Source: Mycolicibacterium chubuense
Lineage (GTDB): Bacteria > Actinomycetota > Actinomycetes > Mycobacteriales > Mycobacteriaceae
DNA length: 49,863 nucleotides
Direction: 5' to 3'
Assembly (NCBI RefSeq): GCF_001044255.1
Contig: NZ_JYNX01000022.1
Location: 1-49,863 of the forward strand
In this document: positions 725-10,802 of the stretch, in pieces
Layout: every line of letters starts with the position of its first letter
Numbering within the stretch: position 1 is the first letter of the stretch
The notes under the pieces: model-generated
What the model was told of the DNA's origin: nothing
The model's input: only the letters and a program-made list of their open reading frames with translations
Database searches by the model: none
Made by a program: the position numbers and the translations under genes

Positions 725-769
725 GCCCCACGGCTACTCCCGTCATTTGCTGACAGAGCACCGTGGGGC
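725..769. terminator. Inverted repeat downstream of modC
   Basis: Perfect 9-bp arms GCCCCACGG (725-733) and CCGTGGGGC (761-769) flank a 27-nt loop. It lies 12 bp after the modC stop and just before the GGDEF-EAL gene. No T-tract follows, and the loop is long for an intrinsic terminator. It could be a weak terminator or a regulatory hairpin. Confidence 0.3.
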
Positions 770-797
770 GCGCAATAGTAGGTGGCATGGGAGTGTC

Positions 798-3118
798 GTG
801 GACATGGGCCGGTATCCGCGGCAGATGATCGCACCGATGGCCGCGCCGCTGGGGCTGGTGCTCGCCCTGGCGGCGCTGCTCGCCGTGGCCGGCGACCAGC
901 CAGCCGTGCGCGTCGCCGACGACCTGGTCAACTTCGGCCTGCTGGTCTATGCCACCGTGTGCGCCGCGCTGGCCGCCAGATCGGCGCTCGGCCGGCTGCA
1001 CCGGGCATGGGTGCTGATGACTGCCGCGCTGGCGGCCTGGGCGCTCGGCGACGCCATCTGGCTGCTGTACGAGCTGATCCTCCGGCAGGATGCGCCCGTG
1101 CCGTCGGCGGCCGACGCCTTCTACGTCGTGTTCGCCCTGCTCGCGATCGCCGCGATGACGCAGTTCGTCGCCGAACCGATGCGCGAATCCCGGCTGCGGA
1201 TCACCCTGGACGGCATCACGGTGGCACTGTGTCTGTTCCTGCTGGCGTGGATCCTGGCCCTGCACACCGTGTACGACGCCTACCGCGACGACCGCGCCGC
1301 TCTGTTCGTCACACTGCTCTACCCCGCCAGCGACCTGGCGATGCTCACCATCGCTGTGGTGACGCTGCTGCGCGCCGACGCCCGCCAGCGGGTGGTGCTG
1401 ACCGTGCTCAGCACGGCGATCGCGGTCATGGCGGTCGCGGACATCGCCTACGCCGTCCTGCTGGCCGGCAACCGCTACCAGACCGGGGATCCGATCGACG
1501 CTGCCTGGGGCGCCGCGGCGGTTCTCTTCGCCGCCGCCGCGCTGATCAGTCGACGCACGCCCACACCGCGCCCACCCGCCCTGTCCGTCCCCTCGAACGC
1601 GTCCCTCTGGCTGCCCTACATACCCCTGCTCCTCGCGGGCACGATCGGCCCGCCGCTGGTGATGTCCGGCCTGGAACGGTTCGTGGTGCCGCTCATCGTC
1701 GTCGCCGTGTGCTTGCGGCAATCGGTCGCCGCGTGGGAGAACCGCCGGCTGCTGGCAGCCGCGGCCGACCAGGCGCTGCGGGATCCGCTGACCGGGCTGG
1801 CCAACACAGCGCTGTTCGACGACCGGTTGGCCCACGCGATGATGCTGCGCTCACGCATCGACCGGTCGGTCGCAGTGCTGTCCCTGGACCTCGACGACTT
1901 CAAGTTGATCAACGACAATCTGGGTCACTCGGCCGCCGATCGACTGCTGGCCGACGTCGCACGCCGGCTGGCCGCATGCGCCCGGACGGGCGACACCGTG
2001 GCCCGCACGGGTGGCGACGAGTTCGCACTGCTCCTCGAAGGGCCGTTCGACGAGTCGGAAACCGTCGCCCAGCAGGTGAGTGACGCCTTCGACATCCCGT
2101 TCACCGTCGACGGGCACGACATCCTGCTGCGGCCCAGCATCGGTGTCACCGTCGCGTCGATGTCCGAGCCCGACCTGACGCCCGAGGTCCTCCGCGAACG
2201 AGCCGCCATCGCGATGCAGGCCGCCAAACGGGCCCGCTCTCCCGAAGTCCACACCTTCAGCGCCGACATGGTGCCCGCCGACGGTGACGGAGCAGACGCC
2301 GCCGCGCGCCGGTCCGGCGGCGACGGTGCCGCCCAGATACGTCTGCTCGGCGAACTGCGCCATGCCATCGACCACAACGGGCTCGACGTGGTGTACCAGC
2401 CCAAGATCTCGCTGCGCACCGGCGACACGGTCGGCGTCGAAGCGCTCCTGCGCTGGCCCCACCCCCAACGGGGCCTGCTGCTGCCCGACGCGTTCCTCTC
2501 GCTGATCCGGGAACGGGGCTTGATCCAGCGGGTGACCGACCTCGTCCTGAACAAGGCGCTCGACGACACCGCCCGCTGGTACGGGCACGACACCCGAATC
2601 CCCGTGGCGGTCAACCTGTTCGCACCGTCACTGCGGGAGACCGACCTGCCCGACAAGCTGTGCCGCGAGCTCGGCCGCCGGGGTCTGCCCACCGATCTGT
2701 TGACCGTCGAGATCACCGAGGACATCGTCCTGAGCGAGATGGACCTGGTGACCGCCGTGTTGCGGCGGCTGCGTGAATACGGGGTGCGGGTGGCCATCGA
2801 CGACTTCGGCAGCGGCTACTCCTCGCTGTCGTATCTGCGCGATCTCCCGATCGACGAGGTGAAACTGCTCCGGTCACCAGCGACGCCCGGGCGGCGGCCG
2901 TCGCGCAGGCGGTCATCGACCTCACCCACGACCTGGGGGCCACCGTGGTGGCCGAGGGAATCGAAGACGCCTCGACCGCCGACTGGCTGCGCGAGCACGG
3001 CTGCGATGTGGGGCAGGGCTATCTGTTCGGCAGGCCCGTCGAAGCGGGGCGGATCGGTGGCCTTGCCGACGCGGACCCCCGGCGCACGGACGACGCTGCA
3101 GTCATCGGTCCCCCATGA
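798..3118 (+). pseudogene. Membrane GGDEF-EAL cyclic-di-GMP protein, frameshifted in the EAL domain
   Basis: A hydrophobic N-terminal region of about 300 residues, with several membrane segments, precedes a GGDEF domain. The motif RTGGDEFAL lies near residue 403 counted from ATG 804, and an I-site RTGD sits five residues upstream of GGDEF. An EAL domain follows (GVEALLRW near 544, [16 protein letters not shown]). After DEVKL the frame breaks at about 2868-2872. The rest of the EAL domain (VTSDAR, VVAEGIED, QGYLFGRP) continues in another frame to a stop at 3116-3118. Comparison with the paralogue at 28895-30691 suggests about 16 nt are missing, including the conserved D-x-x-F after KL. Unless this is a sequencing error, phosphodiesterase activity should be lost while diguanylate cyclase activity could remain. 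The start is GTG 798 or ATG 804, downstream of AGGTGG. Confidence 0.75.
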
Positions 3119-3777
3119 TGCGTCCCGGTGCCGCCGGGTGGCGCCTGCCCCCGCGGCGCCATCCCGGCTGCAGTCGTCGCTGTGCTGCCGCGGGCACGCC
3201 ATCCCCTCAGTGGCGTGTTCGTGCGCAGGCAACGACGTAGCTATTGCACCGGTCAGCCCCCGAGCGCCGGTAGGGGCGAAGGTCCCTGGGTGGCAGACGC
3301 GGCGATAACGGTCACCCGAGCGCACGGTTGTGTCCACGGGGTGACGCCTGTCGTTAGTACTGCTCCTCATCAGGCGCCACCAGCGGTGACGTTGGTCATG
3401 ACGAGAGCAACGACCCGCCCGGGGGGTTGCACATCTGTGATGGGGCCGTATTGTCAGAGGCAGGTGCTATACGTGTCTTGTCACTGTGCCGAGCAAGAAA
3501 GCGGCGTTGCGCCGCCGACGCGGTGACTTACCTACCGTCGTAAGCGCATGTCGAGAATCCGGCGTGAGCTGTTGGTCAGATGCCAACCGTTTATGGGCGG
3601 TCCAAGACTTGACGCCAGTGTCCAGGCCCGTCACATGCTCGCCTGCAAGAGGACAGAATTCGCGAGCGGGTCGCTTCCCTCCCCGTACCGAGGCTTCACG
3701 AGATCGGTCCGAGGTGGCCCAGCACAGCACCGACATGTCGCGCGTCACGTCGACGAACACGAGAGCCGTGATCTGCA
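3119..3777. other. Long intergenic region upstream of the first sigma factor gene
   Basis: About 660 bp without a convincing gene. Open frames exist on both strands, but their translations resemble no family and lack normal codon bias. A 6-bp hairpin (GCGGCG-TTG-CGCCGC) lies at 3501-3515. Local base composition is less GC-rich than its neighbours, so promoter or regulatory sequence for the sigma gene is likely. I could not place a convincing SigF-type or SigA-type promoter. Confidence 0.45.
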
Positions 3778-4575
3778 GTGCAAACTCTTCATCAGCCGAC
3801 GCCATCTGTCAGCACGTCAACGACCACCACCCCCTACGCCGACGTCGTCGTCATGTTCCGTGAACTCGCCCTGCTGGACGCGGACACCGCGGCCCACCGG
3901 CGCCTTCGGGAAGCGATCATCGAACGGTGCCTGCCGCTCGCCGAGCACATCGCCCGACGGTTCCGTGGACGCGGAGAATCCCACGATGACCTCGTTCAGG
4001 TCGCCCGCGTGGGTCTTCTCAACGCGGTCAACCGATTCGACATCGACACCGCCGACGACTTCCTCGCCTTCGCCGTCCCGACCATGATGGGTGAGGTGCG
4101 CCGGTACTTCCGGGACCACGGATGGTCGCTGAAGGTTCCGCGCCGCCTCAAGGAACTCAACATGCGACTCAAGGCGGCCCGGTCCGAACTGACCCAACAG
4201 CTCAACCGGGCGCCGTCACCCAGCGAACTCGCCGAATACCTCGGGATCGACCGGGAAGAAGTCGTCGAAGGACTCATCGCGGCCGACGCGTATTCGACGC
4301 GGTCCACCGAACAGGAACTCAGCGCCGCCGGTGACGGCCTGACGATGAACGACACCTTGGGCGGTCCCGATCCCAACCTGCAGAAAGTGGTCGAGATCCA
4401 CACGGTGCGACCGTTGATCGCCGATCTGCCCGAACGGGACCGCATGGTGCTGAAGATGCGGTTCTTCGACAACAAGACGCAGTCGCAGATCGCCGACGAG
4501 ATCGGCGTCTCCCAGATGCATGTGTCCCGACTGCTGGCGCGCGCTCTGGCCACGGTCCGGGAGAAAGCCAGCTGA
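3778..4575 (+). CDS. SigF/SigB-family RNA polymerase sigma factor
   Basis: Group 3 stress sigma factor of 265 aa that would direct core RNA polymerase to its own promoter class. Region 2 includes DDLVQVARVGLL and AFAVPTMMGEVRRYFRD. Region 3 includes APSPSELAEYLGI. Region 4 carries the helix-turn-helix TQSQIADEIGVSQMHVSRLL near the C-terminus. GTG 3778 is used as start, but the conserved part begins around MFREL, so a downstream start is possible. Mycobacterial sigF normally follows its anti-sigma gene (usfX/rsbW). No anti-sigma gene is present here, while a STAS anti-anti-sigma protein is encoded convergently just downstream. A second paralogue lies at 13112-13891. Confidence 0.88.
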   Translation: MQTLHQPTPSVSTSTTTTPYADVVVMFRELALLDADTAAHRRLREAIIERCLPLAEHIARRFRGRGESHDDLVQVARVGLLNAVNRFDIDTADDFLAFAVPTMMGEVRRYFRDHGWSLKVPRRLKELNMRLKAARSELTQQLNRAPSPSELAEYLGIDREEVVEGLIAADAYSTRSTEQELSAAGDGLTMNDTLGGPDPNLQKVVEIHTVRPLIADLPERDRMVLKMRFFDNKTQSQIADEIGVSQMHVSRLLARALATVREKAS

Positions 4576-4628
4576 GCACGCGCCGGCGGGGCGGCGAAAT
4601 GCCCTGCCCGGCAAGCTCTTCGACGCAA

Positions 4629-4664
4629 CGATCACCCCGGTGCTGCAACGCACCGGGGTGATCG
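4629..4664. terminator. Bidirectional hairpin between sigma factor and STAS genes
   Basis: Perfect 15-bp arms CGATCACCCCGGTGC (4629-4643) and GCACCGGGGTGATCG (4650-4664) flank a 6-nt loop TGCAAC. It lies between two convergent genes and would serve both strands. There is no strong T-tract, as is common in mycobacteria. Confidence 0.8.
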
Positions 4665-4669
4665 CCGCT

Positions 4670-5062
4670 CTAGCGGACGATGGAGTCGAACGCCTGCTCC
4701 ACGGTGGAATGCAGACTCATGATGTCGGCCAGACCGATCATCTGCATCGGCCTGCTGGTCGCCGGCCCGTCGGCGACCACCATGAATTGCGTTGCGGCAC
4801 CGCATCGATCGTGCGCCTCGACGAGCAGGCCCATCCCCACCGATGCGAGGAACTCGACGGCGGTGAGGTCGATGATCATCGAGGTGGGTTTCTTCGTCAG
4901 CGCGGTGTCGATCTGACGGTCGAGCGCCGGGACGGTGAGCATGTCGACATCACCGGTGCAGCGGATCACGACGACCGAATCGTGCCAGGAATCGGTGACG
5001 ATGCACTGCGAGGGCGCGCCGCCCGGCTCCGCCGCGGGCGAGGGTGAAGAGGTGGAAGACAT
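4670..5062 (-). CDS. STAS-domain anti-sigma factor antagonist
   Basis: A 130-aa single-domain protein of the SpoIIAA/RsbV type. Such proteins bind anti-sigma kinases and release the sigma factor when dephosphorylated. The STAS core contains CTGDVDMLTVPALD and DLTAVEFLASVGMGLL; the Ser in FLASVG aligns with the usual phosphorylated residue. The first 20 or so residues are a low-complexity Ser/Pro/Gly stretch. Start ATG 5062 follows GGAGTTGAT. Its convergent placement with a SigF-type sigma gene suggests the same partner-switching pathway, but no RsbW-type kinase is encoded in the window. Confidence 0.87.
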   Translation of the reverse strand: MSSTSSPSPAAEPGGAPSQCIVTDSWHDSVVVIRCTGDVDMLTVPALDRQIDTALTKKPTSMIIDLTAVEFLASVGMGLLVEAHDRCGAATQFMVVADGPATSRPMQMIGLADIMSLHSTVEQAFDSIVR

Positions 5063-5166
5063 ATCAACTCCGAGATCGCATGGATGAAGCGCTGCGTCTC
5101 ACGGGCTGCCTAGTCTGAACCTGAAGGATGGGGCGCGTGATGATCAGTCTATACGCGTCTGGCAAG

Positions 5167-6054
5167 TCAGAGCGCCGATATCGATTTCAGCGCGAAGCTC
5201 CGCACGCGGCCTGCCACCCCGGCGCGGCACATCGACAGCAGCGGCTCGGACAACTCTTCGGCGAGCACCACCTCGACCGGACCTGATGCGCCGGCGAGCA
5301 CGACTCGGACGGTGTCGTCGACGTGGTCGACCGTCACCGGCGAGAGCGCGCGGATGCGTTCGTCGCCGGACGCCTTCCGAACGAAGTACTGCGCAGCCTG
5401 CACCGCATGGGGAAGCGACGTGCGGCCCCGCAGGAACTCGTTGTCGACCAGGCCGTCGACGTACCGGGTGACCAGTGCGGCCGCGTCGGTCGAATCGATC
5501 CGGCCGTAGCAGAGCCCCTCGGGCAGGATCAGCATCGTCGCGGCGAACCGGTCACCACCCAGATGCGAACACTCCCAGGTGTTTCCGGGGTACCGGTCGG
5601 CGATCGCCGCGACCGCCTGTCGCCCCCGGACGGCGCAGCACTGGTCGTGCCGGCCGTGGGCACACACCGCGACGACGGGTTCGGCGGACCGCTCGCCGTC
5701 GCTGCCGTCGAGTGCGAGCTCGAGGTAGTCGGCCGGCTGGGACACCTCGCCGCGGTACAACGCCTCGCTCCCCTCGTCGCAGAAGGCGAGGAACCAGCGC
5801 CAGCGCGGAGTCGCGGCGCGGCGGCCCGGCCGGCGGATCGCGGCGATCCGCATCCCGGCCGTCTCGAACCGGCGCGCGATCGCGCGTCCCAGAACGGGGT
5901 CGATGATCGACGGCGAGTTCAGAAACGCCGACGGACCCCAACCACCGCTGAGTTCGAGCAGCGCCCACGCGTGTCCGGCCGACGCGGTCCCGTACATCAC
6001 GTCGTCGCGCGCCAGGGACTGGTCGCTGCACGGAATGCGCCCGCCGACGGCCAT
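5167..6054 (-). CDS. Sucrase/ferredoxin-like protein
   Basis: A 295-aa protein of the sucrase/ferredoxin-like family, thought to have a thioredoxin-like [2Fe-2S] ferredoxin fold. Visible signatures are CSDQ near the N-terminus, CAHGRHDQCCAVRG in the middle, and SHLGGDRFAATMLILPEGLCYGR after it; the cysteines are candidate cluster ligands. ATG 6054 was chosen because an upstream extension would run into the preceding gene and reads as non-coding. It lies 11 bp after the JmjC gene on the same strand, so the two are probably cotranscribed. Inference: it could supply electrons to the neighbouring Fe(II) oxygenase. No substrate is known for this family member. Confidence 0.82.
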   Translation of the reverse strand: MAVGGRIPCSDQSLARDDVMYGTASAGHAWALLELSGGWGPSAFLNSPSIIDPVLGRAIARRFETAGMRIAAIRRPGRRAATPRWRWFLAFCDEGSEALYRGEVSQPADYLELALDGSDGERSAEPVVAVCAHGRHDQCCAVRGRQAVAAIADRYPGNTWECSHLGGDRFAATMLILPEGLCYGRIDSTDAAALVTRYVDGLVDNEFLRGRTSLPHAVQAAQYFVRKASGDERIRALSPVTVDHVDDTVRVVLAGASGPVEVVLAEELSEPLLSMCRAGVAGRVRSFALKSISAL

Positions 6055-6065
6055 CGACCGCGGCC

Positions 6066-7274
6066 CTAGTCGGCGACGGCCACGACGACCGCCTCGCGGA
6101 GCAGTCGGCGCAGCAGCACCGTGCCGTCGTGGTGATCGAGGCCGGGCAGCGTCGACGCGTCGACGGCCTCGCCGGACTGCAGCGCCGTCAGCGCCGCCGC
6201 GCAGAAGCCCGGAAACGACATGGTGCGGTCGGGAAGCCGCAACCGGACGCGGCCGTCGGCGCTCTCGAGCGGCGCGACCAGACCGCGGCGCCACCGCACC
6301 CGCGTCGTGTCCGCCGCCGCGGCCGCGTCGAGGGTGGCCAGCGGCGGAACCGCCACGGGCCGGGTGCGTTCGCTGTGCCGGCGCGCCATTCGCGCGGCCA
6401 CGCGATCGCTCAGCTCGGCACCACGGTCACGCACCGTCTCGGTCAGCGCGGCCATCACCTTCGACGCGATGGCCGCCGTTTCGCCGGGGTGCGCCACATC
6501 GACACCCATGGGCAACGACTTGCGGAATTCCGCGTCGTCGGCCAGTGCGTCGACGACCGCGCGCAACACGTCGAGGCCCGTCATCGCCGAGACGCCGATC
6601 GTCAGATGGATCGATGTGGTGTCCCCCGACCGGGCGGAATGCACCCAGCCCCGGGGCAGGTACAGCACGTCGCCGGCCGTGAGGACGGTGTCGATCACCG
6701 GAGTCTGCGCGCCACGGACGGTGATCGCGCCGCGGTGGTCGGTCCACGGCTGGCTGGGCAGCGGGTCGGTGTGCACCGGCTCGTGCACGATCCACCGCTT
6801 GTCGCCACTGACCTGCAGCACGAAGACGTCGTGGACGTCGTAGTGCGGGTCGAAGCCCTGATTGTCGGGTGGGGTGATGTAGGCGTTGGCCTGCACCGGA
6901 TGCCCGAGGTCGTCGACCGCATCGCGGACGAAGTCGATCAGCGGCGGCCACAGCCGGTGCAGCCCCTGCAGAACCAGGGTGGCGCCCGCCGCCAGCTGCG
7001 CGAGTACCCGAGCGGAATCCACCTGATCGGGCATCTCCGCGCCGAACCCTCCGGCGTCGAGGTAGCAGTCCCGGGCCAGCAGTTGGCCCGCCTTGGCCAT
7101 CCGCAGAAACGGCGCGCGTACCCCGCGACGGGTGATCAACTCGTCAACGGCATCCGGTGAGAGCAGATCGGTGAAGTCGCGGGGCAGCGCGCCGGACCGG
7201 CTGAGCAGGGGTCGTCGACCCCAGTACTGCGCCGCGAACACCTCCGGAGCGACCGCGACGCAGCGCGTCAGCAC
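6066..7274 (-). CDS. JmjC/cupin-4 family Fe(II)/2-oxoglutarate oxygenase
   Basis: A 402-aa JmjC-type cupin protein of the ribosomal-oxygenase/YcfD-like class. Relatives hydroxylate amino-acid side chains in proteins, for example Arg in ribosomal protein L16 or His in eukaryotic targets. The iron triad is visible as HYD in DPHYDVHDVFVLQ (about residues 164-166) with the distal His in LPRGWVHSARSG. The RW in GDKRW is also typical. The C-terminal half resembles the dimerisation and winged-helix region of this class. The GTG 7274 start lies 9 nt after the stop of the repeat-peptide gene, with an AGGA motif overlapping that stop, which suggests translational coupling. Substrate unknown; the adjacent repeat peptide is the obvious candidate by position. 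Confidence 0.88.
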   Translation of the reverse strand: MLTRCVAVAPEVFAAQYWGRRPLLSRSGALPRDFTDLLSPDAVDELITRRGVRAPFLRMAKAGQLLARDCYLDAGGFGAEMPDQVDSARVLAQLAAGATLVLQGLHRLWPPLIDFVRDAVDDLGHPVQANAYITPPDNQGFDPHYDVHDVFVLQVSGDKRWIVHEPVHTDPLPSQPWTDHRGAITVRGAQTPVIDTVLTAGDVLYLPRGWVHSARSGDTTSIHLTIGVSAMTGLDVLRAVVDALADDAEFRKSLPMGVDVAHPGETAAIASKVMAALTETVRDRGAELSDRVAARMARRHSERTRPVAVPPLATLDAAAAADTTRVRWRRGLVAPLESADGRVRLRLPDRTMSFPGFCAAALTALQSGEAVDASTLPGLDHHDGTVLLRRLLREAVVVAVAD

Positions 7275-7283
7275 GAGACCGTC

Positions 7284-7529
7284 CTAGGCGGTACCGTCCG
7301 CGCCGCCGTCATGGCCGCCGGGGTTGGAGCCGCCATCGGCAGGCCCCTCGCCGCCCGCGGTGCCGTCGGCGCCGCCGTCGTGACCGCCGGGGTTCGAGCC
7401 GCCATCGGCAGGCCCCTCGCCGCCCGCGGTGCCGTCGGCGCCGCCGTCGTGACCGTCGGGGTTCGAGCCGCCATCGGCAGGCCCCTCGCCGCCGGACTCC
7501 GTGGTGATGTCGTCGTCATCGAGTGCCAT
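7284..7529 (-). CDS. Small Asp/Gly-rich protein of three 23-residue repeats
   Basis: An 81-aa protein with a 12-residue leader (MALDDDDITTES) and three consecutive 23-residue units ending exactly at the stop codon. Each unit reads GGEGPADGGSNP-x-GHDGG-ADGTA, where x is D in the first unit and G in the other two. It is very acidic, with no Cys, no aromatic residue, and one His and one Asn per unit. ATG 7529 follows a good AAAGGTGA ribosome site. It is the first gene of a tight operon with the JmjC oxygenase. No enzymatic domain can be seen. The architecture (leader plus identical cores next to a peptide-hydroxylating enzyme family) is like a multi-core modified peptide or a dedicated oxygenase substrate. 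A metal-binding role through the Asp/His residues is an alternative. I do not recognise a characterised family. Confidence 0.75.
   Translation of the reverse strand: MALDDDDITTESGGEGPADGGSNPDGHDGGADGTAGGEGPADGGSNPGGHDGGADGTAGGEGPADGGSNPGGHDGGADGTA
7287..7493 (-). repeat. Three tandem 69-bp coding repeats
   Basis: Units occupy 7287-7355, 7356-7424 and 7425-7493. Differences between units are few, for example GTCATGG versus GTCGTGA, GGTTGG versus GGTTCG, and one Asp/Gly codon change. The period is an exact multiple of three, so copy number can change without a frameshift. Confidence 0.9.
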
Positions 7530-7770
7530 TGTCGTCACCTTTCCGCGCCACTGGGATGCCGCTGGGATGAGCCGCAGCCTACCGCGCCTCGCTGTGGTGC
7601 CCACCCGGTACGGAACCCAAACCCGCCTCGGTTTCCCGGCGGATAACGGACCGTCGGAGATGGCGTAACGATCGGGGCGTGCCGAGCGCAAGACGGGGCG
7701 CTCCCAGTACGATCGGGCCATCGATCCGGTTCGGGATCGCGTGGCCGTCGCCGACAACACTGGAGAACGC

Positions 7771-9042
7771 TTGAGGTCTGATCGTCGTGCCCGCGCTGTC
7801 TGCCTGGCAGCCCTGCTGGCGGTGATCGCCGCCGTGGGCATCGTCTCGTCGAGCGCGCCGCAGTGCCCTGATCGCTGCCAGGCATTGGCCGCGGCCACTG
7901 CGTCGCACTTCGCGCCGCCGGCTCCTCCGTCGCCCACGGCACCAGCCCGGCTCATCGTGACCCCGGGCGCGGGATCCGAGGACGTCAAACCTGACGCCCG
8001 GGTGCTCGTCGCGGCCGTCGACGGGACGCTCGAGAGCGTCACGATGGTCAACGACGCGGACAAGGAGATCCCCGGGGTGCTGACCCCCGACGGCAAGGCG
8101 TGGAAGCCGACGGTGCAGCTCGGGTACGGCCGCACCTACACGATGACGATCGCCGGGCGCGGTCCCGGAGGTATGCCGACCCGGCAGACCTCCAGCTTCA
8201 GCACCATCGATCCGAGCGACCAGGCCTCGGTGTACCTGAACACGGTCGGCTACGCATCCATCGAGGACGGCGGTACCTACGGCGTCGGCATGGTGATCGT
8301 GGCCCACTTCGACGAGACCGTCGACAAGGCGGCCGCCGAACGACACCTGCGCGTGCGCACGGATCCGCCGGTCCCCGGCAGCTGGTACTGGGTCGACGAC
8401 CAGACGGCGCACTGGCGTCCGCAGAAGTACTACGCCCCCGGCACGAAAGTCAGCGTCGTCGCCGACATCTACGGCGACAAGCTCGGCGACGATCTCTACG
8501 GCGCCGAGGACGAGACGGTGAGTTTCGTGATCGGCGATGCGCACGTGTCGATTGCCGACGACACCACCAAGCAGGTCAGCGTTTTCGACAACGGCAAGCT
8601 CGTCCGCACGATGCCGACCTCGATGGGCATGGGCGGCACCGAGACCATCGGCGGGAACACGCTGTCGTTCTGGACGCCTCCGGGGGTCTACACAGTCATC
8701 GACAAGGCCAACCCGGTGATCATGGACTCGTCGACGTTCGGGCTGCCGGTCAACAGCCGGCTGGGCTATCGGGAGACGATCCCGTGGGCCACCAAGATCA
8801 GCTCCGACGGGATCTATCTGCACCAGCTGAACTCGACGGTGTGGGCACAGGGCAACACCGACACCAGCCATGGCTGCCTGAACCTCAACAGCGACAACGC
8901 GCAATGGTTCTACTCGTTCTCGCGGCCGGGCGACGTCGTCGAGGTCCGCAACACCGGCGGGCCGCCCCTGCGCCTGAATCAGAACGGCGACTGGACGCTG
9001 CCGTGGGAGGAGTGGCTGAAGGGCAGTGCCCTGCGGCAGTGA
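7771..9042 (+). CDS. L,D-transpeptidase with YkuD catalytic domain
   Basis: A periplasmic enzyme that makes 3-3 (mDAP-mDAP) cross-links in mycobacterial peptidoglycan. An N-terminal hydrophobic segment (about residues 8-25) acts as signal or anchor and is followed by a Pro/Ala linker. Two Ig-like domains come next, then the YkuD domain with the catalytic Cys in TSHGCLNLNSDNAQW and an upstream His in YLHQLN. The C-terminal tail after RPGDVVEV extends into TLPWEEWLKGSALR, as in the longer mycobacterial Ldt proteins. TTG 7771 is preferred because GGAGAACGC sits directly before it; GTG 7741 is the alternative. It is transcribed divergently from the repeat-peptide operon. Confidence 0.92.
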   Translation: MRSDRRARAVCLAALLAVIAAVGIVSSSAPQCPDRCQALAAATASHFAPPAPPSPTAPARLIVTPGAGSEDVKPDARVLVAAVDGTLESVTMVNDADKEIPGVLTPDGKAWKPTVQLGYGRTYTMTIAGRGPGGMPTRQTSSFSTIDPSDQASVYLNTVGYASIEDGGTYGVGMVIVAHFDETVDKAAAERHLRVRTDPPVPGSWYWVDDQTAHWRPQKYYAPGTKVSVVADIYGDKLGDDLYGAEDETVSFVIGDAHVSIADDTTKQVSVFDNGKLVRTMPTSMGMGGTETIGGNTLSFWTPPGVYTVIDKANPVIMDSSTFGLPVNSRLGYRETIPWATKISSDGIYLHQLNSTVWAQGNTDTSHGCLNLNSDNAQWFYSFSRPGDVVEVRNTGGPPLRLNQNGDWTLPWEEWLKGSALRQ

Positions 9043-9087
9043 GGGGAACTGTCCGGTCCTTCGGCCCACACATTCCATTGCGCTTAA

Positions 9088-9098
9088 GCAATCATTGC
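9088..9098. promoter_or_regulatory. Palindromic operator GCAATCATTGC, site 1
   Basis: An 11-bp palindrome with a single central base, 67 bp upstream of the monooxygenase start. A third half-site ATTGC lies at 9077-9081, so half-sites alternate. A -10-like TATAGA lies at 9109-9114, which puts the palindrome in the spacer/-35 area where a repressor would block polymerase. Identical copies occur at 10841 and 14036, and a one-mismatch copy at 12994. Confidence 0.7.
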
Positions 9099-9164
9099 GT
9101 TTAGCATGTATAGAGGGCGGGCGTCCTCTGTGGGTCTCTCGCTTGACGATCGAGGCGGTGAGAC

Positions 9165-10802
9165 GTGCGTGTGGTGATCTGCGGAGCCGGAATCGCCGGA
9201 CTCACTCTCGCGAACAGGCTCGCAACGTCCGGCGCCGACACCGTGCTGCTCGAGCGCTCGCCCGTGCCACGGCCGGAGGGGTACATGATCGACTTCTTCG
9301 GCCCGGGCTACGACACCGCGGCGGCGATGGGCCTGCTGCCGGCCCTGCGCGCCGTGTCCTATGACATCGACGAAGCGCAACTGGTGAACGAGCACGGTCG
9401 ATGCCGCGCGCGGGTACGCCCCGCCCTGTTCGCCGAGCAGGGGCTGCTCGATCTGATGCGGCCCGATCTGGAGAGGGTGCTCCGCGAGGCGCTGCCGGCC
9501 GCGGTGGATCTCCGGTTCGGCAGCGCGGTGTGCGACGTCGCCGATCTCGGTGACGGGATTCGCGTGACACTGGAGGACGGCTCACAGGTGGACGCCGATC
9601 TACTGGTTGGCGCGGACGGTCTGCATTCGACGGTGCGCCGTCTGGTGTTCGGTCCTGACTCGATGTTCCTGCGCTACCTCGGATTTCACACCGCTGCCTT
9701 CACGTTTCACGACACCGGCATACGAAGCGCCATGGTCGGGCACTTCTGCCTCACCGACTCCATCGACCGGCAGGTCGGGCTCTATGCCCTCCGAGACGGC
9801 CGCATCGCTGTCCTCGCGGTGCACCGCTGCCCCGACTCCACACCCCCAGATGACGTGCGCTCAGCCATCCGTCAGGCCTACAGCGGGTTGGGGTGGCTCG
9901 TCCCCGACGTGCTCGACCGGTGCCCCGCAGAGCACATCTACTACGACCAGGTCGCCCAGGTCGTCATGTCGTCTTGGCACAAGGGGCGGGTCGTCCTTCT
10001 CGGAGACGCCGGTTACGCCGTATCGCTGATCGCCGGCCAGGGCGCATCCCTGGCGATGGCCGGTGCCTATGTGTTGGCCGACCGCCTCCACGAAGCGGAA
10101 TCGATCGAGGAGGCGTTACTCGACTTTGAGGCTGTCTGGCGTCCGATGGCCGAGGAGAAGCAGCGGAAGGGGCGTGCGGGAACCCGCTGGTTCCTTCCGT
10201 CGTCGGCATGGCAGATCCGGGTGCGCCACGTGGTGCTGCGCTGCACGCGACTCCCGTTCGTCGACCATCTCGTGGCCACCGCACTTGTCGGCAAGTCCAG
10301 CGGAGCCATCCTCGAACCGGACCGCACGCGCATGGCGAAGTCACTCCGGACGGCTTTGGCCGCGCCGACCGTTCTGTACGCCAACGGGTTCGGATGGCTT
10401 CTCGGGCGGCGCTTCCTCTGTCTGACCCACACCGGACGGAGGTCGGGACATCGCTACCGAACCGTGCTGGAGGTGATCGGCGCCGATCGCGGTGCTGACG
10501 AGTACCTGGTGATCGCGGGGTTCGGCCGTTCGTCGGACTGGTTGCGCAACATCGAGGCGCACGACGACTTCGAGGTGATCGTCGGCAGAGATCGGTTCTC
10601 AGCGGTGCACCGTGTGCTCTCGGGAGCAGAGGCGGAGTCGGCGATGGCCTCGTACGAACGAGCACACCGCTGGATTGTGCCGCTGATCCGCCGTGTGCTG
10701 ACCCGACTGCTCGGATGGCGCTACGACAGCAGCCCTGCCGCACGTGCGCGGCTCGCCCGTCAACTGCCAGTGGTAGCGCTCTCTCCGCGATCGCCGAGCT
10801 GA
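9165..10802 (+). CDS. FAD-dependent monooxygenase fused to a Ddn-like (F420-type) domain
   Basis: A 545-aa two-domain protein. Residues 1 to about 385 form a class A flavin monooxygenase: Rossmann motif GAGIAGLTLANRL (about 7-19), the DG motif VGADGLHSTVRRL, and the second FAD motif VVLLGDAGYAVSLIAGQG. A linker leads to a C-terminal domain from about 400 resembling the nitroreductase/deazaflavin-dependent family (Ddn, FGD-A), with FLCLTHTGRRSGHRYRTVLE and EYLVIAGFGRSSDWLRNI. Known relatives of that domain use F420H2 to reduce quinones or nitro compounds. The GTG start follows GAGGCGGTGAG. No stop or frame change separates the domains. An operator palindrome precedes the gene. Substrate unknown; xenobiotic or quinone detoxification is an inference. 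Confidence 0.88.
   Translation: MRVVICGAGIAGLTLANRLATSGADTVLLERSPVPRPEGYMIDFFGPGYDTAAAMGLLPALRAVSYDIDEAQLVNEHGRCRARVRPALFAEQGLLDLMRPDLERVLREALPAAVDLRFGSAVCDVADLGDGIRVTLEDGSQVDADLLVGADGLHSTVRRLVFGPDSMFLRYLGFHTAAFTFHDTGIRSAMVGHFCLTDSIDRQVGLYALRDGRIAVLAVHRCPDSTPPDDVRSAIRQAYSGLGWLVPDVLDRCPAEHIYYDQVAQVVMSSWHKGRVVLLGDAGYAVSLIAGQGASLAMAGAYVLADRLHEAESIEEALLDFEAVWRPMAEEKQRKGRAGTRWFLPSSAWQIRVRHVVLRCTRLPFVDHLVATALVGKSSGAILEPDRTRMAKSLRTALAAPTVLYANGFGWLLGRRFLCLTHTGRRSGHRYRTVLEVIGADRGADEYLVIAGFGRSSDWLRNIEAHDDFEVIVGRDRFSAVHRVLSGAEAESAMASYERAHRWIVPLIRRVLTRLLGWRYDSSPAARARLARQLPVVALSPRSPS

Follow-up and report, generated by a model that had tools for sequence, protein, structure and literature searches.

A repeat peptide conserved beside a JmjC oxygenase in Mycolicibacterium chubuense and other actinobacteria: a candidate minimal system for the oxidation of ribosomal peptides

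The locus and its genes

A group of three closely spaced genes in Mycolicibacterium chubuense, encoding a short repeat peptide, a JmjC oxygenase and a Suc_Fer-like protein, is the subject of this study. It lies on the minus strand of contig NZ_JYNX01000022.1, within an analysed stretch of 49,863 nucleotides (hereafter, the window) that served as the reference locus and is listed as L016 among the loci of its relatives. The peptide gene (7284..7529, minus strand) begins with ATG and encodes 81 amino acids, comprising a 12-residue acidic leader and three 23-residue units. The leader, MALDDDDITTES (7494..7529, minus strand), was delimited by translation and a test for the leader motif, and carries the acidic-Ile motif DDDDI. 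The core (7287..7493, minus strand), recognised from its translation, tandem repetition and unit conservation, has the consensus GGEGPADGGSNPxGHDGGADGTA; its units read GGEGPADGGSNP[D/G]GHDGGADGTA, differ at one residue, and the last of them runs to the stop codon. At the DNA level the whole core is one 69-bp tandem repeat, present in 3.0 copies with 95% matches. Each unit offers one His, one Asn, two Pro, three Asp and one Glu, with a fourth Asp in unit 1; a first-pass annotation of this DNA had counted the His and the Asn correctly and had found one Pro where there are two.

The JmjC Fe(II)/2-oxoglutarate (2OG) oxygenase, which is NO66/MINA-like, is encoded at 6066..7274 (minus strand; GTG start, 402 amino acids, PF08007), and the Suc_Fer-like protein, a frequent accessory, at 5167..6054 (minus strand; 295 amino acids, PF06999). 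From the coordinates, 9 bp separate the peptide and JmjC genes and 11 bp the JmjC and Suc_Fer-like genes. The tight spacing on the minus strand that the first-pass annotation reported was therefore correct, and translation bears out its description of an 81-residue peptide with a short leader and three near-identical 23-residue units extending to the stop. The peptide belongs to no Pfam or NCBIfam family, an NCBIfam search with the peptides, the JmjC protein and the Suc_Fer-like protein returned nothing beyond one chance-level match, and an Rfam search over positions 4500-9200 gave nothing informative.

The peptide is a conserved gene. Compared with its closest orthologue (L046, Mycobacterium kyogaense) it shows 22 synonymous and 2 non-synonymous nucleotide differences (4e-9 in a binomial test against one third synonymous), and compared with L047, 23 and 2. 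Eight more distant peptide genes of the same length give synonymous to non-synonymous ratios from 23:21 to 38:12, while the ratio of about 10:92 in four others (L096, L110, L118 and L120) arises because those genes were compared without alignment and their units stand out of register. Scored by one unvarying criterion, an Asp-rich open reading frame (ORF) lies upstream of 31 of 33 JmjC genes and of 1 of the 404 other genes that the 35 loci examined contain.

The JmjC protein matches PF08007 well above the cut-off (E 5e-29, 100.8 bits against 22) and is the sole match to that family in the window's genome. The residues of the HxD...H motif (H144, D146 and H212) and the 2OG lysine (K159) are present in 48/48 sequences, a set consisting of alignment A1 and 25 loci from across the phylum, so that the intact HxD...H motif noticed at first pass holds throughout. 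Its best relatives in the PDB are NO66 and MINA, with YcfD matching less well than NO66 and FIH giving a weak profile match, and the JmjC profile aligns to NO66 chain 4y4r over positions 7-398, C-terminal region included. A tree placed A1 and most of the phylum loci in two groups separate from the majority of paralogues; several of its branches are long, and its deep joins are unsure.

Pairing of the peptide and JmjC genes across genomes

We searched a panel of 249 genomes of the same order with the JmjC query at E 1e-30 and the peptide query at E 0.001. The JmjC query matched 141 genomes, four of them through a paralogue of 33-35% identity only, and the peptide query matched 64. All 64 possess the JmjC gene, with the peptide directly upstream, and no peptide match occurred in the 108 JmjC-negative genomes. 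Two further peptide matches lie near contig ends (G098:C9:47-283 and G248:C92:21139-21249). The pairing of peptide and oxygenase is strongly supported: a small peptide gene and a putative modifying enzyme are conserved together, as is expected of ribosomally synthesised and post-translationally modified peptides (RiPPs). The first-pass annotation had proposed that the peptide is dedicated to the oxygenase, and that peptides commonly found without a JmjC gene would speak against this; no such genome was found among the 249, and its proposal of dedication stands.

Among 41 relatives the peptide query found 15 matches, 14 of which adjoin a JmjC gene; the other (L015) is a weak match of 36% identity with no JmjC gene within its 3.2 kb stretch. 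A single peptide query left 77 JmjC-positive genomes of the order unmatched, and divergent peptides were present in these wherever the upstream DNA was read. The peptide was intact in 108 of a set of 112 loci, the window included, and the four others are interrupted inside the repeat, by a frame break in L054, L071 and L089 and by a run of N in L077; L040 has too little upstream DNA for a judgement. Since draft assemblies break inside the repeat or at contig ends, annotations may often miss the peptide gene. Here and in the two sets below, counts are of loci, because many loci repeat one genome or species.

Beyond this set, an Asp-rich peptide lies upstream in 28 of 28 further loci with at least 41% JmjC identity and enough upstream DNA, 18 of them flagged automatically and 10 recognised by eye; L165 retains the peptide tail only. 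The named loci come from Mycobacterium/Mycolicibacterium, Gordonia, Williamsia, Dietzia, Rhodococcus, Cellulomonas, Herbiconiux, Leifsonia and Agreia. Across the phylum, JmjC profile A1 matched 40 of 296 genomes at 1e-40. Of 25 phylum loci that were read, 24 had upstream DNA, and an Asp-rich ORF was seen by eye in all 24, two of which (L177 and L196) are atypical. The more distant phylum peptides resemble TDGDATDADGTDGDA or DADAADADA, not ADGG. Judgements on the phylum set, and those on the set of at least 41% identity beyond the automatic flag, were made by eye.

Eleven paralogous JmjC loci of lower identity (L147-L157) were kept apart from the main set. Seven of them (L149, L150-L152 and L154-L156) have other short upstream ORFs containing ADND or similar motifs; in genus g37 all six loci read (L150-L152, L154-L156) have an upstream ORF ending in AADNDGNDG and a Suc_Fer gene downstream. 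A second type of peptide, with IADNDPSDP-like repeats and a leader containing DEIEV or DDVEV, precedes a divergent PF08007 gene on a plasmid of Streptomyces clavuligerus (L201:2772-2918) and in an f14 genome (L149). Farther afield, in cyanobacteria, a Dolichospermum plasmid (L198:1652-1867) encodes a small peptide of double-glycine type with RSSAQLN repeats near a cupin/PF08007-like gene, and on a Pseudanabaena plasmid (L199) such a gene lies near a LanM gene.

Leader, core and the proposed modification

Within the first 22 residues, an acidic-Ile/Met/Val motif is present in 103 of the 105 peptides from the order and in 18 of the 24 from the phylum, where the choice of start favoured the motif in the former set and starts were picked by hand, again partly for the leader, in the latter. 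When starts were chosen by ribosome-site match alone, which left 103 usable peptides, 86 with an unchanged start, 87 of these 103 had the motif, compared with 5% of shuffles; this is below the 103 of 105 from the biased starts and still supports a leader. The peptides mostly contain two or three near-identical units, and their cores vary widely between loci while the leader motif is kept; a conserved leader is thus combined with a variable core, the arrangement typical of RiPPs. Asp is present in every core of both sets, with a minimum of three, whereas His is missing from 12 of 105 cores in the order and 15 of 24 in the phylum, and both His and Asn are missing from 4 of 105 and 13 of 24 respectively. 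At the level of single units, 85 peptides yielded 46 distinct units of the ADGG type, chosen for their likeness to the reference unit. Of these 46, the three Asp positions are retained in 44, 46 and 45 respectively; 36 have the His and 38 the Asn, and the two Pro persist in 21 and 36.

Judging from these comparisons of sequence, we consider it rather probable that the two genes form a minimal RiPP-like unit, in which an acidic leader would guide the JmjC enzyme to hydroxylate the repeated Asp. The short gene would then supply a multi-core precursor peptide and the JmjC protein would be its dedicated oxygenase. The leader, through its [D/E][D/E]I motif, would probably be held by a putative C-terminal winged-helix domain of the enzyme, similar to a RiPP recognition element (RRE), and the JmjC active site would oxidise the repeats of the core, the likeliest reaction being beta (C-3) hydroxylation of those Asp that lie in A-D-G and H-D-G contexts. 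Such a target is plausible because a JmjC enzyme, FIH, has been described to hydroxylate aspartyl residues at C-3, in the passages of PMC9994133 that concern it. The Suc_Fer-like protein may be a common and dispensable helper, perhaps providing redox support or a second step.

Several observations weigh against this proposal. More than half of the peptide-positive genomes (34 of 64, counted by eye) belong to one family, f15, the Fisher test of co-occurrence between peptide and JmjC gene ignores phylogeny, and loci overlap between analyses. Four of the 11 paralogous loci (L147, L148, L153 and L157) have no Asp-rich peptide upstream. Gly and Ala are found in all cores of the 105-peptide set and Ser or Thr in all cores of both sets, so the universality of Asp does not single that residue out. 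Most other NO66 chains align to the JmjC profile only as far as about position 306, and NO66 and MINA53, the nearest solved relatives, are characterised as narrow histidine hydroxylases in the sources consulted. Nor would a plain 2OG oxygenase account for a Suc_Fer gene conserved beside it. Finally, every other neighbour was confined to 4 or fewer of 35 diverse loci, as judged with a crude gene caller, and these loci share no conserved protease, transporter or regulator; a conserved leader protease or exporter is usual, if not obligatory, for RiPPs. Given that neither protease nor transporter is conserved nearby, the product probably stays inside the cell or is completed by housekeeping enzymes.

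It is unlikely, in our estimation, that the peptide is instead a partner of the oxygenase, whether an acidic regulator, an inhibitor or a ligand of the iron site, and that the enzyme acts on some other protein, for example a ribosomal one. The ribosomal oxygenases do belong to PF08007, the enzyme here is the only member of that family in its genome, and the 35 diverse loci have no conserved peptide-processing genes. However, near-identical repeated cores behind a separate conserved leader look like a multi-site substrate, the oxygenase has no match at E 1e-30 in 108 of the 249 genomes searched, which would not be expected of a core ribosome modifier, and the pocket residues differ from those of NO66. 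According to the portion of PMC6006756 dealing with its Rpl8 substrate peptide, NO66 contacts that peptide through R297, Y328 and S421. Placed via the profile alignment, by spacing, R297 corresponds to V101 (V in 47/48 sequences, I in 1/48), S421 to G227 (48/48) and Y328 to Y132 (48/48), and hence one of the three contacts of the NO66/MINA histidyl hydroxylases appears to be kept. With HxD...H and K159 retained and two of three contacts replaced, the protein looks like a working 2OG oxygenase that lacks those contacts.

The same replacements bear on an alternative in which hydroxylation would fall on the His (or Asn) of every unit, within N-P-x-G-H-D-G, by analogy with the action of NO66 and MINA53 on ribosomal His. 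The closest solved relatives are indeed NO66 and MINA, the unit in mycobacteria contains a single His and a single Asn, and of the 46 distinct units 36 keep the His and 38 the Asn. Against this, many cores lack His, some homologues lack both residues while none lacks Asp, and of the NO66 contacts only Y328 persists. As a universal target, His or Asn was rejected, since these residues are absent from many cores and two of three contacts are replaced, and we regard a His or Asn modification as improbable.

We assign a similarly low probability to chemistry more extensive than hydroxylation, in which the Suc_Fer-like protein would be a second enzyme (carrying out, for example, oxidation of hydroxy-Asp, its shortening by one carbon, or crosslinking). 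The Suc_Fer-like protein matches PF06999 over residues 110-210 (E 1e-16, 62.1 bits against a cut-off of 34.9), is the sole match to that family in the window's genome, and gave two weak, unrelated matches in a PDB sequence search. Its gene is present in 103 of 120 loci, and in the 34 measured the matched part begins 1160-1447 nt past the JmjC start, which places it directly behind the JmjC gene. Nine residues are invariant in 34 Suc_Fer sequences (C9, C131, H133, D137, C139, C140, E161, H164 and C276), and the conserved Cys and His among them, like the frequency of the gene, would suit a catalytic role. On the other hand, none of the 34 f15 genomes, all of which have the peptide and the JmjC gene, has a Suc_Fer match at 1e-12 (counted by eye), and the gene can be found where the JmjC query has no match, as in genome G026. 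The Suc_Fer-like protein was rejected as an obligate part of the unit on the evidence of the f15 genomes. For the same reason, the first-pass view of it as a ferredoxin-like protein required to keep iron reduced is weakened, its presence in most loci notwithstanding; of that interpretation as a whole, the dedication of the peptide is supported, and, among the residues it listed, His or Asn as the general target is not. Articles in JACS from 2025 reportedly concern, by their titles, 2OG-dependent macrocyclisation and a cascade from Asp to aminomalonate in peptide natural products, and could already describe related chemistry.

Least tenable is a chance ORF or repeat artefact of GC-rich DNA: open frames are common in GC-rich tandem repeats and further ones overlap at the peptide locus, but adjacency to the JmjC gene across genomes, the 22:2 codon constraint and the neighbour-gene control (31/33 against 1/404) leave this explanation next to no credence, and it was rejected.

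Further genes of the window were recognised by eye. Behind the Suc_Fer gene, a STAS anti-sigma-antagonist-like gene lies at 4670-5062 (minus strand) and a SigF/SigB-like sigma factor gene at 3778-4575 (plus strand), an order of STAS and sigma genes also seen in L046. A GGDEF/EAL-type protein is encoded at 747-3308 and 2945-3118 (both plus strand); its EAL part shifts frame at about 2780-2945, which indicates a broken gene or a sequence error.

Comparison with known systems and implications

The ribosomal oxygenases NO66/RIOX1, MINA53/RIOX2 and YcfD share with the enzyme described here a JmjC fold (by sequence), the HxD...H motif, the 2OG lysine and, for NO66 4y4r, a near-full-length alignment. 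They differ in that the present enzyme is encoded beside a dedicated repeat peptide, has V/I and G in place of NO66 R297 and S421, and is unmatched in the 108 order genomes noted above. FIH belongs to a family other than that of the PF08007 enzyme, and we know of no dedicated repeat peptide that accompanies it. It is likewise a JmjC enzyme, to which the present protein gives its weak profile match, and hydroxylates Asn, Asp and His at C-3 in the account given by the same portion of PMC9994133. Apd1-type proteins resemble the Suc_Fer-like protein in their PF06999 match and invariant Cys and His. The ligands in Apd1 are two Cys and two His, whereas the position of the second His is Asp in most rows of Suc_Fer alignment A2, a difference read here from sequence alone.

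Closer in concept are the JmjC/cupin RiPP hydroxylases BipG/BpmG and PbsQ, which hydroxylate ornithine in biphenomycin-type clusters, as outlined in the relevant parts of PMC12707348 and PMC12257519. There, too, a JmjC/cupin oxygenase acts on a ribosomal precursor peptide, a relation that is predicted for the pair described here. As outlined in those parts, however, such clusters also encode a multinuclear non-haem iron-dependent oxidative enzyme (MNIO), a B12-radical SAM (S-adenosylmethionine) enzyme and a peptidase, whereas the JmjC and Suc_Fer-like proteins are the only conserved enzymes here and the core is built of repeats around Asp. Enzymes of other families are already known to beta-hydroxylate Asp in RiPPs, to judge from the passages on this reaction in PMC13060819 and PMC12636437. 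The 2025 update of RRE-Finder reports, in the portion concerned, fish and algal PF08007 proteins with RRE-like folds and bacterial homologues in RiPP-like contexts (PMC12710340); its section 6 refers to the bacterial proteins without naming a peptide, repeat, taxon or operon. The peptide family described here would give concrete substance to that remark.

Searches of the open literature on JmjC/cupin RiPPs, Suc_Fer proteins, and ribosomal oxygenases with hydroxyaspartate found no description of the peptide-JmjC pair, most subscription papers lying outside their scope, and searches of the open literature with the repeat strings and Suc_Fer names found nothing relevant. These results suggest a two-gene system, apparently undescribed and widespread in actinobacteria, in which an enzyme oxidises its own peptide. 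To our knowledge, few substrates of bacterial JmjC proteins have been established. The genomes point to a candidate, a tiny peptide that was not found without its enzyme in 249 genomes, and, as its homologues differ in the residues that flank a constant Asp, the substrate, the modified residue and the rules of leader recognition are open to mass spectrometry.

A broader possibility, which we regard as speculative and fairly unlikely, is that ribosomal peptides bearing many beta-hydroxyaspartates are made throughout the phylum, each by one JmjC enzyme under the guidance of the leader. Chains rich in hydroxyaspartyl residues should bind hard metals well, and the module could thus be an intracellular buffer or sensor of iron or calcium, or a new class of metallophore, with the Suc_Fer-like protein controlling whether the metal is oxidised or reduced. 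Should Asp prove to be the target, these loci would be a new and extensive source of beta-hydroxyaspartate peptides, and might reveal how the ribosomal oxygenases and the enzymes of RiPP biosynthesis relate to one another.

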